Origin: Terriglobus albidus | GTDB taxonomy: Bacteria; Acidobacteriota; Terriglobia; Terriglobales; Acidobacteriaceae | Length of the DNA stretch: 64,000 nucleotides | Direction of reading: 5' to 3' | NCBI RefSeq assembly: GCF_008000815.1 | Contig: NZ_CP042806.1 | Span: 186,001 to 250,000 of the forward strand | In this document: piece after piece, positions 13,814 through 50,653 of the stretch | Layout of the letters: each line of letters opens with the position of its first letter | Numbering within the stretch: the first letter of the stretch is position 1 | Program-made: the position numbers and the translations under genes | Notes under the pieces: generated by a model | Told to the model about the DNA's origin: nothing | The model's database searches: none | What the model saw: only the letters and a program-made list of their open reading frames with translations

Positions 13814-14991
13814 GCCTTGCTCCCGAAGACAACGGCGAAGGCCTGCTCGAAGTCAGCGATGAGATCCTTCGGCGCCTCAAGGCCGACCGAGAGACGGATC
13901 AGGCGATCGGAGATGCCCAGCGCCTCGCGTGCTTCACGCGTGAGATCGCAGTGCGATGCCGTGGCCGGATTGGTCGCCAGCGTCTCCACTGAACCGAGGC
14001 TCTCGGCGCAGGTGCAGAGCTTGAGCGCGTTCATGAAACGTAGTGAGTCTTCCGTACTGGCATCGAGCTCAAAGCTCAGCATGCCGCCGAAATCCTTCTG
14101 CTGCGAGGCAGCCAACGCTTTCTGCGGGAAGGAATCGAGGCCCGGATAATTCACCTTGGCCACACGCGGATGCGCTTCGAGCCATGCGGCAATCTGCTTG
14201 GCGTGGCTGCAATGTACATCCAGGCGAGCCGGCAGTGTCTTGATGCCCTGCAGTGCCAGCCATGAGTCAAAGGGAGTCTGGATCGAACCAATGGTCTTGC
14301 GTACCAGACGCAGGCGCTCTACCAGCTTTTCATCGTTGGTAGCCAGCGAGCCGCCGATGGTAGCGTTGTGGCCATCGATGTACTTCGTCGTCGAGAGCAT
14401 GGAGACATCCGCGCCCAACGCGAGACAGTCCTGCAGCAGCGGCGTGAGGAAGGTATTGTCCACGGCAACGAGGATGTTCTCGTGCTTGTGCGCAACCTCG
14501 GAGACACCACGGATGTCTGAGATCTTCAGCGTGGGGTTCGCTGGGGACTCCAAAAAGATAAGCCGAGTGTTCGGCTTGATAGCGGCTTCCGCCGGCCCAG
14601 CGCTGGAGGTATCGACGTAGCTGTACTCAATACCGAAGTTGCCCAGCACCTGGTGGAACAGACGCATGGTGCCGCCGTAGATCACATCCGAGAGGATGAC
14701 GTGATCGCCTGCTTTAAGGATCGCCATACACAGCGTGTGAATGGCTGACATACCAGACCGGAAACAGAGTGCAGTCGCCGTGTTCTCAATCGCGGCGATG
14801 GCCTGCTCCAACGCATTCACTGTCGGGTTTGCGCCACGCGAGTAGCCGTATCCCTTGGTGACGCCGACACTCTCATGGATATAAGTCGCCGTCTGGTGAA
14901 TGGGGAAAAGAATGGAGTTGGACTGCATCTCGTAGGAGCGATTGGAATGAATAACGAGTGTAGATGGATCGAAGTCTGGACGTTCTGACAC
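13810..14991 (-). CDS. metB: cystathionine gamma-synthase-like PLP enzyme
   Basis: 393-residue gamma-family PLP enzyme of transsulfuration. The Schiff-base Lys is about K203 in STTKYIDGHNA; YGYSRGANPTVNALE and VDNTFLTPLLQDCLALGAD are family blocks. The likely reaction condenses an activated homoserine with cysteine to form cystathionine, which the adjacent downstream gene could then cleave. Start GTG 14991 has GGGAG 6 nt upstream; the frame continues to 15021 through a TTG. Close relatives include methionine gamma-lyase and O-acylhomoserine sulfhydrylase, which sequence alone does not fully exclude. Confidence 0.8.
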   Translation of the reverse strand: MSERPDFDPSTLVIHSNRSYEMQSNSILFPIHQTATYIHESVGVTKGYGYSRGANPTVNALEQAIAAIENTATALCFRSGMSAIHTLCMAILKAGDHVILSDVIYGGTMRLFHQVLGNFGIEYSYVDTSSAGPAEAAIKPNTRLIFLESPANPTLKISDIRGVSEVAHKHENILVAVDNTFLTPLLQDCLALGADVSMLSTTKYIDGHNATIGGSLATNDEKLVERLRLVRKTIGSIQTPFDSWLALQGIKTLPARLDVHCSHAKQIAAWLEAHPRVAKVNYPGLDSFPQKALAASQQKDFGGMLSFELDASTEDSLRFMNALKLCTCAESLGSVETLATNPATASHCDLTREAREALGISDRLIRLSVGLEAPKDLIADFEQAFAVVFGSKA

Positions 14992-15021
14992 GGTATGCTC
15001 CCTACGTTGATTGAAGCACAA

Positions 15022-15344
15022 CTAGCTTAACTGAGGGTGCGGTGCGGATTGGATGGGGAAAGACAGGGGTTGAAGATGGTTTTGTTTGGGTTGGATGGGA
15101 CTGAAGGTAAAGCAGTTCGCGCGTAGCGCGAATGTCCCACCATCGCGATGCGATGGGTGGGACACCCAGATTTGCGGGAACGCTTAAAAGCGGGTCCTTC
15201 GCTACGCTCAGGATGACAAGGGTAAAGGTGATGCCCTCTTTGGTTGTCATCCTGAGCGTAGCGAAGGACCTGCTTATTGCCAGAAGAAAGGCCGACAGGA
15301 CCGCCGGCCTTTCCAACTAGCATCCAGCAACTAGCAACCAGCAA
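15022..15344. repeat. REP-rich gap with 26-bp perfect inverted repeat
   Basis: The gap holds two stacked palindromes. TGTCCCACC/GGTGGGACA arms lie at about 15133-15164. Positions 15193-15218 and 15245-15270 are exact reverse complements containing CTTCGCTACGCTCAGGATGA. A single related copy lies at 32946-32972. No gene seen. The first 100 bases upstream of the gamma-synthase gene should carry its promoter. Confidence 0.8.
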
Positions 15345-26861: not shown

Positions 26862-26901
26862 GGCGGGGTGGCCTAACGTGCCGGTTGCCCCGCCCTTTTT
26901 T
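26862..26901 (+). terminator. rho-independent terminator
   Basis: GC-rich stem GGCGGGG (26862-26868) with CCCCGCC (26888-26894), an inner GGC/GCC pair, and six T residues at 26896-26901. It ends the secreted-protein transcript and abuts the cys promoter. Confidence 0.88.
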
Positions 26902-26909
26902 GTTAGAAT
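26901..26909 (+). promoter_or_regulatory. extended -10 promoter of the cys leader
   Basis: TGTTAGAAT fits an extended -10 (TGnTANNNT), which would explain the lack of a good -35. The predicted start, 6-7 nt downstream, falls on the GTG/ATG at 26916-26921, so the leader peptide mRNA would have no 5' UTR. Confidence 0.55.
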
Positions 26910-26918
26910 AAACACGTG

Positions 26919-26960
26919 ATGCGCCGCGTCTTCACCGACCGCTGTTGTTGTCTCCTCTAG
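26919..26960 (+). CDS. 13-codon polycysteine leader peptide (putative cysteine attenuator)
   Basis: A tiny frame reads [13 protein letters not shown] then TAG; an in-frame GTG at 26916 directly precedes the ATG. Three consecutive TGT codons in a short peptide about 70 bp upstream of cysD, at a likely transcription start, is the pattern expected of a cysteine-responsive leader. Leaderless polycysteine upstream frames that attenuate sulfur operons are known from mycobacteria; I do not know of one described in Acidobacteriota. Ribosome slowing at the Cys codons under cysteine limitation would raise cysDNH expression (inference). No alternative function is visible, and no ribosome site precedes it. 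Confidence 0.65.
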
Positions 26961-27030
26961 CGCCCTCCCCACTCGCGCTCGCGCATCGTTCTCTTGTCCC
27001 AAATCATCTTTTCTGGAAGTACCGGAGTCT

Positions 27031-27984
27031 ATGAGTACCCTTCTTCCCACTGACGCTGCATCGTCCGTCGCCGAGCTCCTGACGCCGCGCAAGATGGACC
27101 ATCTGCGCGCGTTGGAGGCCGAAAGCATCTTCATTCTGCGCGAGGCCGTCGCCGAGTTCGCCCGGCCGGTCATGCTGTATTCCATCGGCAAAGACTCAAG
27201 CGTTATGCTGCGGCTGGCGCAGAAGGCCTTTTACCCCGGCAAGATTCCCTTCCCTCTGCTGCACATCGATACGAGCTACAAGTTCCCGGAGATGATCACC
27301 TTCCGCGACAACTACGCGAAGGAGATCGGCGCCGACCTGATCGTGCACCGCAATGAGAAGGCCATCGCCGATGGTGCGAATCCGCACGACCTGGGAACGC
27401 AGAACTGCTGCGGGCTGCTGAAAACGCGTGCTCTGCTCGACGGTCTGGAGGCCGGCGGCTTCGATGCAGCCTTCGGCGGAGCGCGACGCGACGAAGAGAA
27501 GAGCCGCGCCAAGGAGCGCGTCTATAGCTTCCGAGACGGCAACGGACAGTGGGACCCGAAGAATCAGCGTCCAGAGCTCTGGCAGATCTATAACTCGCGC
27601 CTGAAAAAGGGCGAGAGCATCCGCGTCTTCCCGCTCTCGAACTGGACCGAGCTCGACATCTGGCTCTATCTCTACGCCGAACAGATTCCAATCGTGCCGC
27701 TCTACTTTGCGCGTGAGCGTGAGGCGGTCATCCGCGCCGGGCAAATCACACTGACCTATCCCGAGACCCGCCTGCTGCCTGGGGAAAAGATTGAGACAGT
27801 GATGTGCCGCATGCGCTCGCTGGGCTGCATGCCCTGCACCGGTGCGATCCGCAGCGAAGCTGACACCCTTGAAAAGATCATCGCGGAGCTGATCAGCTTC
27901 CGCCGCTCGGAGCGCGAGAACCGCGCTATCGACCACGACGAAGAGGGCTCCATGGAGACCAAGAAGCGGGAGGGCTACTTCTAA
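27031..27984 (+). CDS. cysD: sulfate adenylyltransferase subunit 2
   Basis: 317-residue ATP-pyrophosphatase-type subunit that, with CysN, makes adenylylsulfate (APS) from sulfate and ATP. The PP-loop is in [11 protein letters not shown] (about residue 50), followed by the typical [37 protein letters not shown] and [13 protein letters not shown] blocks. The length is standard. GGAG lies 3 nt before the ATG, close but acceptable. It is first in a tightly packed cysDNH operon: the cysN start codon follows the cysD stop directly. The upstream polycysteine frame probably regulates it. Confidence 0.97.
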
Positions 27985-29562
27985 ATGGCCACCGCATCGG
28001 CAAGCACCGACTTCCGCGCATTCCTCGACTCGCATCTCGACCGCGATCTGCTGCGCTTTACCACCGCCGGCTCCGTCGATGACGGCAAGAGCACACTCAT
28101 CGGCCGCCTGCTGCACGATACCAAGAGCGTCTACGAGGATCAGCTCGCCTCCGTCGCGAAGAGCCGCGTCAATCGCGCCGGCAATGGGCGTGTTGATCTC
28201 TCGCTGCTGACCGACGGTCTGCGAGCAGAGCGCGAGCAGGGCATCACCATCGATGTGGCCTACCGTTACTTCGCCACCTCGAAGCGCAAATTCATCATTG
28301 CCGACACACCGGGCCACGAGCAGTACACGCGCAACATGGCCACCGGTGCATCGACGGCTGATGTTGCCATCGTGCTCGTCGATGGAAGCAAAGGCATCCT
28401 TCCGCAGTCGCGGCGTCACAGCTTCATCGCATCGCTGCTGGGCATTCCCCACGTCGTTGCGGCGGTAAACAAGATGGATCTTGTTGGCTACGACGAAGCG
28501 AGGTTCCGCGCCATCGAAGCTGACTTCCGTGCCCTGGCAAAACGGCTCGGCCTGCGCAGCGTGCAGATCATCCCCGTCTCGGCGCTGGAGGGCGACAACG
28601 TCGTCACCTCCTCAGCCAACATGACGTGGTACAGCGGACCGACGCTGCTCGATTATCTGGAGACTGTGCCGTTGCGCGTGCATGTTGCCGACCAGCCGCT
28701 CCGTTTCCCGGTACAGCTCGTTGTTCGTCCTGACCGCACCTTCCGCGGCTTTGCCGGGCAGGTTGCCAGTGGCATTGTCCGCGCAGGTCAGCATGTCGTT
28801 GCGCTGCCCAGCGGCCGCCGCACCCAGGTGAAGCGTATCGTGACCTGGGATGGCGATCTGAAGGCTGCCGGACCAGGCGAGAGCGTCACCCTGGAACTGA
28901 CGGATGAGATCGACGTCAGCCGCGGCGAGATGCTGATCTCGCCCGACGCGCATTCGAACTCCGTTCCCACGGTAAGCACTGCCTTCGGAGCGAAGGTGGT
29001 GTGGATGCACGAGGAACCACTCGAGGCGGGCAAAACCTATCTTCTGAAGCAGACCTCACGCGTCGTACGTGCCGAGGTGAAGCGCATCGCCTATCGCGTC
29101 GACGTCAACTCGCTGGAGCATCTGGATGCCACCGAGCTGAAGATGAACGACATCGCGGAAGTAGAGTTCGAGACCAACCTGCCGCTCTTCTTCGATGCCT
29201 ACCGCGAGAACCGCGTGACCGGTGCGGCGATTCTGATCGATCCGCTGTCGAACGCAACTGTCGGCGCGCTGATGATCGACCGCGCCGTGAGTACAGCAAC
29301 CCGCGACAGGTTACCTGCGCTACTCGCCGCCGCACACATCGACCTGGCCGAGCGCCTGCGGGAGCTGCTGGCCGCCGCCGGGCATCGCGCCGTGGTGCTG
29401 CATGGATTTACTCCGGATGAGGTTCCGGTTGCGGTGCGTGCGTTGCAGCTTGCCGGTGTGCTGGCGATTGTTGCCGGGCTCGTAGAAGGCGCTACGGTCC
29501 TCAATGCCACTGATGATGCCGGTCTGATCACCGCCCTGGCGGAGATGGGAGTAACCGTATGA
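27985..29562 (+). CDS. cysN: sulfate adenylyltransferase subunit 1 (GTPase)
   Basis: 525-residue EF-Tu-like GTPase subunit of ATP sulfurylase; GTP hydrolysis drives APS formation. G-motifs are visible: GSVDDGKSTL (G1), DTPGHEQYTRNM (G3) and NKMDL (G4), followed by translation-factor beta-barrels. The last ~90 residues (RLPALLAAAHIDLAERLREL to the end) extend past the barrels but lack a P-loop and so are not the APS kinase CysC that is fused in some homologues. That, plus the cysteine pattern of CysH, indicates direct APS reduction. It overlaps cysH by 4 bp (ATGA). Confidence 0.96.
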   Translation: MATASASTDFRAFLDSHLDRDLLRFTTAGSVDDGKSTLIGRLLHDTKSVYEDQLASVAKSRVNRAGNGRVDLSLLTDGLRAEREQGITIDVAYRYFATSKRKFIIADTPGHEQYTRNMATGASTADVAIVLVDGSKGILPQSRRHSFIASLLGIPHVVAAVNKMDLVGYDEARFRAIEADFRALAKRLGLRSVQIIPVSALEGDNVVTSSANMTWYSGPTLLDYLETVPLRVHVADQPLRFPVQLVVRPDRTFRGFAGQVASGIVRAGQHVVALPSGRRTQVKRIVTWDGDLKAAGPGESVTLELTDEIDVSRGEMLISPDAHSNSVPTVSTAFGAKVVWMHEEPLEAGKTYLLKQTSRVVRAEVKRIAYRVDVNSLEHLDATELKMNDIAEVEFETNLPLFFDAYRENRVTGAAILIDPLSNATVGALMIDRAVSTATRDRLPALLAAAHIDLAERLRELLAAAGHRAVVLHGFTPDEVPVAVRALQLAGVLAIVAGLVEGATVLNATDDAGLITALAEMGVTV

Positions 29563-30251
29563 GCGTCGCCGTTCCGGTGGACTACGAATCGTTGAATGCG
29601 GAGCAGTTGGCCGGGCAGATCTTCTCCGAGTATGCAGGCGTGCCCGCCTGCTTTACCTGCAGCTTCCAGACCGAGGACATGGTCGTGCTGGACATCCTGC
29701 GGAAGATTCAGCCGGAGATCGCGGTCATCTTCCTGGAGACCGGCTATCACTTCGCGGAGACTTACGCCTACCGCGATCAAATGGTCGCGGCGTGGAACCT
29801 GAACCTCATCAATGCGCTGCCGGAAGACACACGTGCCGAGCACGAGGCGAAGCGCGGCCTGCTGCACATCGTGAACCCGACCGAGTGCTGCAACCTGCGC
29901 AAGGTGGGGCCGCTGATGAAGTCATTGGAGCCCTACGGTGTGTGGTTCACCGGCCTGCGCCGGGAACAGTCGCCGACGCGCGCCAACCTCAAGAAGGTTG
30001 AGGATCATCGCACTCCCAACGGCCACGAGCTGAAGAAGATCTCTCTGCTGGCGGACTGGAACTGGGAGCAGGTCACCGCATACGCCAAGGCTCACAACAT
30101 CCCCGAGCTGCCGTTGTATGCCAAGGGGTATACCTCCATCGGATGCGAGCCTTGCACCGCGATCTCCAGTGATCCCAATAACGCCCGCGCCGGGCGCTGG
30201 GGCGGAAAGAAGCTGGAGTGCGGTATTCACACCTTCAGCGAAAAACAATGA
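29559..30251 (+). CDS. cysH: adenylylsulfate (APS) reductase, assimilatory
   Basis: 230-residue thioredoxin-dependent reductase producing sulfite. It carries the [4Fe-4S] cysteine set of APS-type enzymes: ECCNLRKV (CC pair) and GCEPC (CxxC), plus the catalytic Cys in KKLECGIH near the C-terminus. PAPS-only reductases lack the CC and CxxC cysteines, so APS is the predicted substrate, consistent with no cysC nearby. ETGYHFAETY and GVWFTGLRREQSPTRA are family blocks. Translationally coupled to cysN by a 4-bp overlap. Sulfite reductase is not encoded in this window. Confidence 0.95.
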   Translation: MSVAVPVDYESLNAEQLAGQIFSEYAGVPACFTCSFQTEDMVVLDILRKIQPEIAVIFLETGYHFAETYAYRDQMVAAWNLNLINALPEDTRAEHEAKRGLLHIVNPTECCNLRKVGPLMKSLEPYGVWFTGLRREQSPTRANLKKVEDHRTPNGHELKKISLLADWNWEQVTAYAKAHNIPELPLYAKGYTSIGCEPCTAISSDPNNARAGRWGGKKLECGIHTFSEKQ

Positions 30252-50270: not shown

Positions 50271-50653
50271 CACTGACGCGACAGGCTCGCTGAAGATCGT
50301 TGCTGGAGCGTATTCGTTTGGTATTTTTGGTAGGAATTTAGGGTATTCCTCACCCACCCTAGCGTTGCGAGGGTGGGGCACCCGGCGAAGAAAAATGAGA
50401 GAAACAGATTTCTCCGCTGCGCTCCGAAATGACAAACAAAGGTGCCATGGCTCTGAGCGCTGAAGGCGCGCTCTATATCAGCCTGGGGCAACGCCCCAGG
50501 TCTCCGGCACATTGAAAGTCCAAGGGCTGAAGGCCCGCTCTATAACTAGGACTCTCAAAGCAACGCGAATTGGCCAACACGCCGAGGAGCTATGTTTACG
50601 CCCGCTGAACGCCCGGGACATGGGGCACTGGGTGCGACAACTCTCCCTGCCTC
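50271..50653. repeat. REP-rich gap
   Basis: No gene seen in about 380 bp. It contains a CACCCTAGCGTTGCGAGGGTG hairpin core near 50352-50372 joined to GGGGCACC, an AGATTTCTCCGCT..GAAATGACAAACAAA block shared with 22907-22950, a CCTGGGGCAACGCCCCAGG hairpin near 50480-50500, and an AGGGCTGAAGGCCCGCT copy near 50522. Confidence 0.65.

Follow-up and report, generated by a model that had tools for sequence, protein, structure and literature searches.

The cysDNH operon and its leader frame

The window, the whole stretch of 64,000 nucleotides analysed here (G000:C1:186001-250000), lies in a 6.4-Mb single-contig genome and carries on its plus strand a sulfate assimilation operon composed of cysD (27031-27984; PF01507), identified as a sulfate adenylyltransferase subunit also from its relatives, cysN (27985-29562; PF00009) and cysH (29559-30251; PF01507), an APS/PAPS reductase, the latter two named from context. 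The encoded CysD shares 99% identity with the Terriglobus albidus DSM 26559 protein, and a GGAG (27024-27027), 3 nt before the cysD ATG at 27031, may serve as its Shine-Dalgarno sequence. Upstream, on the same strand, the intrinsic terminator of the preceding gene (26862-26901) is read from a GGCGGGG stem arm (26862-26868) paired with CCCCGCC (26888-26894) and a T run (26896-26901) that touches the -10 region. There, an extended -10 element, TGtTAGAAT (26901-26909, hexamer TAGAAT at 26904-26909), is followed by the 6 nt AAACAC and by a short frame (26916-26960) with an in-frame GTG (26916-26918), an ATG (26919-26921), three consecutive TGT cysteine codons (26943-26951) and a TAG stop (26958-26960) 70 nt before cysD. 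The original prediction had described exactly this arrangement, a 13-codon frame with three TGT codons between the previous terminator and cysD, and an extended -10 ending 6 nt before an in-frame GTG-ATG, and both are found where it placed them.

The TAGAAT hexamer is kept in six sister loci (L002, L003, L083, L036, L028 and L105). The GTG is not conserved, as L083 has TAGAAT, 7 nt and then ATG, and translation may therefore begin at the ATG, behind a 5' untranslated region of 0-3 nt; judged by its distance from the -10, the start codon would lie at the 5' end of the transcript. A scan for paired sigma-70 elements returned no promoter at the leader, the site consisting of the extended -10 only. 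Across both strands of the window, 26 start sites of frames of 8-40 codons lie 5-9 nt behind a TANNNT hexamer, and the cysD leader, counted from both of its starts, is the sole one with two adjacent or at least three cysteines.

The leader of L083 differs from that of the window at four positions, all four synonymous and one of them a change of TAG to TAA, while the leaders of L002 and L003 additionally show a change of F to L. Cysteine codon use sets the leaders apart from the genes they precede: in 55 cysD leaders we counted 217 TGT and 47 TGC (82% TGT), against 36 TGT and 336 TGC (10% TGT) in the cysD genes of 80 loci, and 240 TGT and 121 TGC in the leaders of sulfite reductase genes. Within the window, cysD has no TGT and five TGC, and cysH no TGT and seven TGC.

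Folding of the window leader is no better than that of its shuffles (z -0.26). By eye, its start, GATGCGC (26918-26924), can form 7 bp with GCGCATC (26981-26987), and L083 changes both sides of this pairing (AATGCGC and GCGCATT), one compensatory change among few taxa; we do not use the pairing as evidence, since it was not seen in L036, L028 and L105. Rfam recorded no known RNA family at the window leader and only tRNAs in 20 relatives; its single match in the window lies elsewhere, an Acido-Lenti-1 RNA on the minus strand (50456-50500, 44.4 bits). For the leaders of five relatives, NCBIfam gave no leader-peptide family; its one match, to a model for a sporulation killing factor, is weak and reaches 13.6 bits where the cut-off is 45.

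Cysteine-rich leaders before cysD and sulfite reductase genes

For the cysD sample we took the best 80 of 142 relatives in the Acidobacteriota and retained, for each locus, the best frame of 7-60 codons starting 4-9 nt after TANNNT within the 450 nt upstream of cysD. The original prediction would have fallen had the frame and its cysteine codons not been conserved in relatives, and here it held: such a leaderless-positioned frame with at least three cysteines was found at 51 of the 80 loci and, with the reverse strand searched instead, at 3 of 79, counts that are not independent, as the sequences compared are related, and that include a few doubtful cases such as L015, a 50-codon frame without a cysteine cluster. 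The same search found such frames at 0 of 80 loci inside cysD, 2 of 76 in cysN, 2 of 71 at 1000-1480 nt and 0 of 64 at 2000-2480 nt further upstream, and in 61 of 1580 mononucleotide shuffles. Minus-strand cysD loci, several from strains shared with the 80-locus set, have at least three cysteines in 10 of 13 cases, and when the gap is widened to 4-10 nt, 81 of 110 loci pass, duplicates included. In a hand-chosen set of 37 loci from which near-duplicates were left out, and which includes L021 and L094 with their weak terminator calls, the spacing from hexamer to start is 6 or 7 nt in 29, so the leaderless spacing is itself conserved.

Among more distant cysD genes only 7 of 40 have such a leader; in this set L132 and L133 have cysteine-rich frames without the -10. 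Outside the class, 6 of 30 cysD loci examined combine a cysteine-rich frame with a strong terminator, two of them with a -10. In some close relatives the frame before cysD has two cysteines at most. At nine loci (L014, L016, L017, L020, L022, L030, L031, L032 and L035), conserved leaderless SxRxARC frames with only one or two cysteines, such as MKDTSFRVARCSKLTEKC, take the place of the polycysteine leader. Upstream regions of the Edaphobacter type (for example L004, L005, L089 and L092) have in common a conserved sequence resembling ACTGACTTAGTTTAGCAGAT, which may be the site of a regulator, and, about 18 nt before the -10, a TTGCGG that may be a -35 element. A pattern search over 150 genomes gave 12 entries in 9 genomes, several of them cysteine leaders that precede cysD, cysH, sulfite reductase or other genes; L119, another of the matches, was discarded as a leader, as it lies inside a 150-aa frame.

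Sulfite reductase genes show the same arrangement. Over distinct upstream sequences, 52 of 71 loci have a leaderless-positioned frame with at least three cysteines, against 4 of 71 in reverse (67 and 15, respectively, when the -10 is not required), 10 of the 71 having been anchored by match position for want of a recognisable N-terminal motif. In 67 of the 71, a terminator with a score of at least 13 on our own scale stands behind the leader. In the window's genome, the sulfite reductase leader, MQTAKNSCCCPVCCCV, starts 7 nt after TAGCCT and is followed by a terminator, CCCGCG-ttctaat-CGCGGGCTTTG. Three of the 71 loci, all of the window's genus (L216, L217 and L226), lack both a terminator and a leader behind a -10, and four paralogs whose N-terminus is nitrite-reductase-like (L163, L168, L187 and L192) have no leaderless frame in the 270-390 nt upstream that were examined.

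Termination devices and the wider set of leaders

In 28 attenuators of deeper lineages, 14 before sulfite reductase and 14 before cysD, base pairing is possible between the leader tail, CUUCUGGC...GGG, and the 5' arm of the terminator, CCC...GCCAGAAG, and these relatives have both the terminator and the competing antiterminator of a classical attenuator. The antiterminator pairs in 87.3% of cells, against 82.5 in shuffles, and has a covariation score of 0.132 against 0.072, neither value being reached by any of 500 shuffles, which are uncorrected for relatedness. Cells changed on both sides number 16 against 9.8 in shuffles (6 of 500), whereas the four pairs changed on both sides are not unusual (2.9 in shuffles; 77 of 500). 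Column pair 5-86 occurs as CG 11 times, UA 6, UG 2 and AU once, with 8 unpaired, pair 6-85 as UA 17 times, AU 4 and UG once, with 6 unpaired, and pair 4-87 is unpaired in 15 of the 28; the pattern by which the sequences were selected spans columns 7-11, 81-84 and parts of the terminator arms, and does not cover these outer pairs (4-6 with 85-87). The terminator itself pairs in 93.2% of cells, without marked covariation (0.105 against 0.100; 79 of 500 shuffles). Of the 67 terminator-bearing sulfite reductase leaders, just 22 have a pairing of tail and arm that exceeds 95% of tail shuffles; in the window's family most loci, the window genome's own among them, show weak pairing.

A covariance model built from the 28 attenuators and run on 151 genomes matches in 50 of them; it has no match in the window. 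Among 30 model-matched loci, the genes, assigned by eye, include cysD, two kinds of sulfite reductase and SseA-like sulfurtransferases, as well as an SsuA-like protein, a TauE-like permease and TonB-linked proteins. Three of the 30 are aspartate kinase or aspartate-semialdehyde dehydrogenase genes, also by eye, so the model finds other amino-acid attenuators as well. Leaders of the same build, Thr/Ile-rich or Val/Leu/Ile-rich and each placed between a -10 and a model match, belong to genes read by eye as aspartate kinase (L345, L346, L347 and L330) and ilvD (L350, 602 aa), and would be attenuators for other amino acids. Leaderless cysteine-rich frames were also seen before genes read by eye as proB (glutamate 5-kinase; L111), a beta-carbonic anhydrase (L120) and a TlpA-like redoxin (L117), with terminator-like stems in L111 and L120.

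The window's genome holds two more cysteine leaders, both with terminators, one before its sulfite reductase gene and the other before an operon encoding a rhodanese (PF00581), a type-2A encapsulin shell (PF19307) and an aminotransferase class-V protein (PF00266), which we read as the cysteine desulfurase cargo. The match before the encapsulin operon lies outside the window (G000:C1:3845141-3845242) and consists of leader MKFAGQNRVCCSTCMVHTHPRVFWLSAIPE, tail GTCTTCTGG and terminator CCCACCACCAGAAGACCTGGTTGGTGGGTTTTG; in the surrounding locus (L332, G000:C1:3844800-3850800) the terminator has a matching antiterminator, and L320 and L328 are similar.

At the window locus, no intrinsic terminator was found between the leader and cysD. 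Of the 81 cysD loci that pass, 34 have a terminator-like stem in a permissive scan, a few of them weak, and 47, mostly of the window's family, have none. The spacer of the window copy (26961-27030, plus strand) is rich in C and poor in G (C27 G13 T20 A10), and over the 70 nt after the leader stop the C-over-G skew is +0.32 in the 47 loci without a terminator and 0.00 in the 34 with one, compared with -0.07 upstream of promoters (n=80). Ranked among all 70-nt stretches of its own locus, the spacer has a median percentile of 96.5 in the 37 hand-chosen loci (at least 95 in 22 of them, 98 at the window locus), and ordinary intergenic regions have mean skews of +0.06 in the window (n=23, that of cysD included) and -0.01 in 14 relatives (n=15). 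Given a C-rich, G-poor spacer and no terminator, Rho-dependent attenuation is the leading proposal for the window copy, whose genome has a rho gene. The same skew, +0.26, is found in 28 sulfite reductase leaders of the same family that do have terminators, and it therefore goes with the leaders rather than with missing terminators, which leaves Rho a proposal. Another intergenic stretch of the window with a strong C-over-G skew (about 14991-15200, minus strand) reaches +0.54 before a minus-strand gene call, with no leaderless short frame.

A probable cysteine-responsive attenuator and its alternatives

Taking these data together, we propose that the frame at 26916-26960 is a cysteine-responsive leader-peptide attenuator of cysDNH, with a probability of about 0.82. 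Similar leaders in many relatives make it very probable that it lets the cell switch on its sulfate assimilation genes when cysteine is short, acting in cis; both the transcript start and the cysteine response are inferred. Transcription would start at or within about 3 nt of the leader start codon, and the ribosome would load on the 5' end of the RNA. With ample Cys-tRNA, it would pass the three UGU codons, reach the stop two codons on and leave, baring the C-rich RNA, on which Rho might end transcription before cysD; with Cys-tRNA short, it would stall on the UGU codons and cover the start of the C-rich stretch, and the polymerase would read on into cysD. The Rho step at the window locus is the tentative part of this scheme, and we consider it slightly less probable than its absence.

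That the frame is a product of chance is highly improbable. TGYTGYTGY by itself is not rare, occurring 12 times in the window against about 5 expected, but the leader is the only frame of its kind there, its conservation is far above that of the controls and its changes are synonymous, and we rejected this reading. Only slightly less remote is the view that the short peptide itself acts, for instance as a cysteine-rich metal- or redox-binding protein whose place before cysD is secondary: cysteine clusters could bind metal, and in the closest sister it is the peptide rather than the RNA that is conserved, yet leader sequence and length vary freely outside the cysteine codons, and the TGT bias and the terminators behind the frames fit sensing at the level of codons.

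A more serious alternative, though still an unlikely one, is translational attenuation, where the position of the leader ribosome would set the pairing of the cysD Shine-Dalgarno sequence without premature termination. This is reported for leaderless polycysteine frames in M. smegmatis, and would suit both the missing terminator at the window locus and a local hairpin that can pair the GGAG region of cysD. Against it, the Shine-Dalgarno sequence is predicted to be unpaired to nearly the same extent with a stalled (0.31) and a finished (0.33) ribosome, a comparison that covers 25 of the 37 loci with a crudely picked Shine-Dalgarno sequence and a stretch other than the GGAG at 27024-27027 in the window; the 70 nt from leader stop to cysD are long for direct coupling, and related leaders work with intrinsic terminators. 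The reading given in the original prediction is supported by the conserved frame, cysteine codons and spacing; a Shine-Dalgarno switch finds no support in folding.

Classical amino-acid attenuators, such as the trp, thr and ilv leaders, act by stalling on codons of the end product. The cysteine leaders would stall ribosomes in like manner, and resemble them in the terminator and antiterminator of the relatives and in the terminators at two loci of the window's own genome, and differ in that the window locus has no terminator, its leader is leaderless and the amino acid is cysteine. In tnaC-type Rho-dependent leaders, an arrest peptide holds a ribosome that shields a Rho site by the leader stop; the ribosome on the window leader would likewise shield a Rho site next to the stop, but would stall from lack of charged tRNA, and the role of Rho here is a proposal.

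The closest parallels are actinobacterial. Leaderless polycysteine attenuators are known in mycobacteria (PMC4633059, PMC9031893, PMC13236596, PMC9094748), where leaderless short frames with clustered cysteine codons (Shell 2015, PMC4633059; Canestrari 2020) precede sulfur genes, as does the leaderless-positioned frame at the window locus, and attenuate by cysteine supply, as we propose for the window leader. Unlike these, the present leaders belong to another phylum, the window copy has a C-rich spacer and lacks support for Shine-Dalgarno switching, and relatives use intrinsic terminators with antiterminators. A 2005 survey of Actinobacteria (Seliverstov-type; PMC1262725) predicted short leaders before cys operons with cysteine runs near the stop and without terminators, and suggested possible Rho sites as a weak prediction; here the host is one of the Acidobacteriota, the C-rich spacer recurs and sister loci have terminators. 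In further studies, predicted leaderless genes make up an average of 13.3% across three Acidobacteria genomes (PMC3160421), almost no attenuators predicted in Acidobacteria had an assigned function according to a 2010 survey (PMC2965389), and a type-2A encapsulin shell and cysteine desulfurase rise during sulfur starvation in a cyanobacterium (PMC8049743). Among the matches listed by a literature search that left most subscription papers and all bioRxiv preprints outside its scope, none described a cysteine leader or attenuator in Acidobacteriota or tied encapsulins to a leader peptide.

We consider it rather probable that, across much of the Acidobacteriota, sulfur assimilation is generally controlled through attenuation by cysteine-responsive leader peptides, in parallel to the system of Actinobacteria. 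Leaderless UGU-rich leaders would there be combined with exchangeable termination devices, either Rho or an intrinsic terminator with its covarying antiterminator, and their targets would be sulfate activation, the reduction of sulfite, sulfurtransferases and the compartment of type-2A encapsulin and cysteine desulfurase. If true, this would be the first case of a classical terminator-antiterminator switch in a cysteine attenuator, and would extend cysteine attenuation beyond Actinobacteria, with similar leaders working with different termination devices. It would also provide a candidate control for the type-2A encapsulin compartment and, for a soil phylum that is abundant and little studied, a regulatory logic of sulfur metabolism that can be tested.
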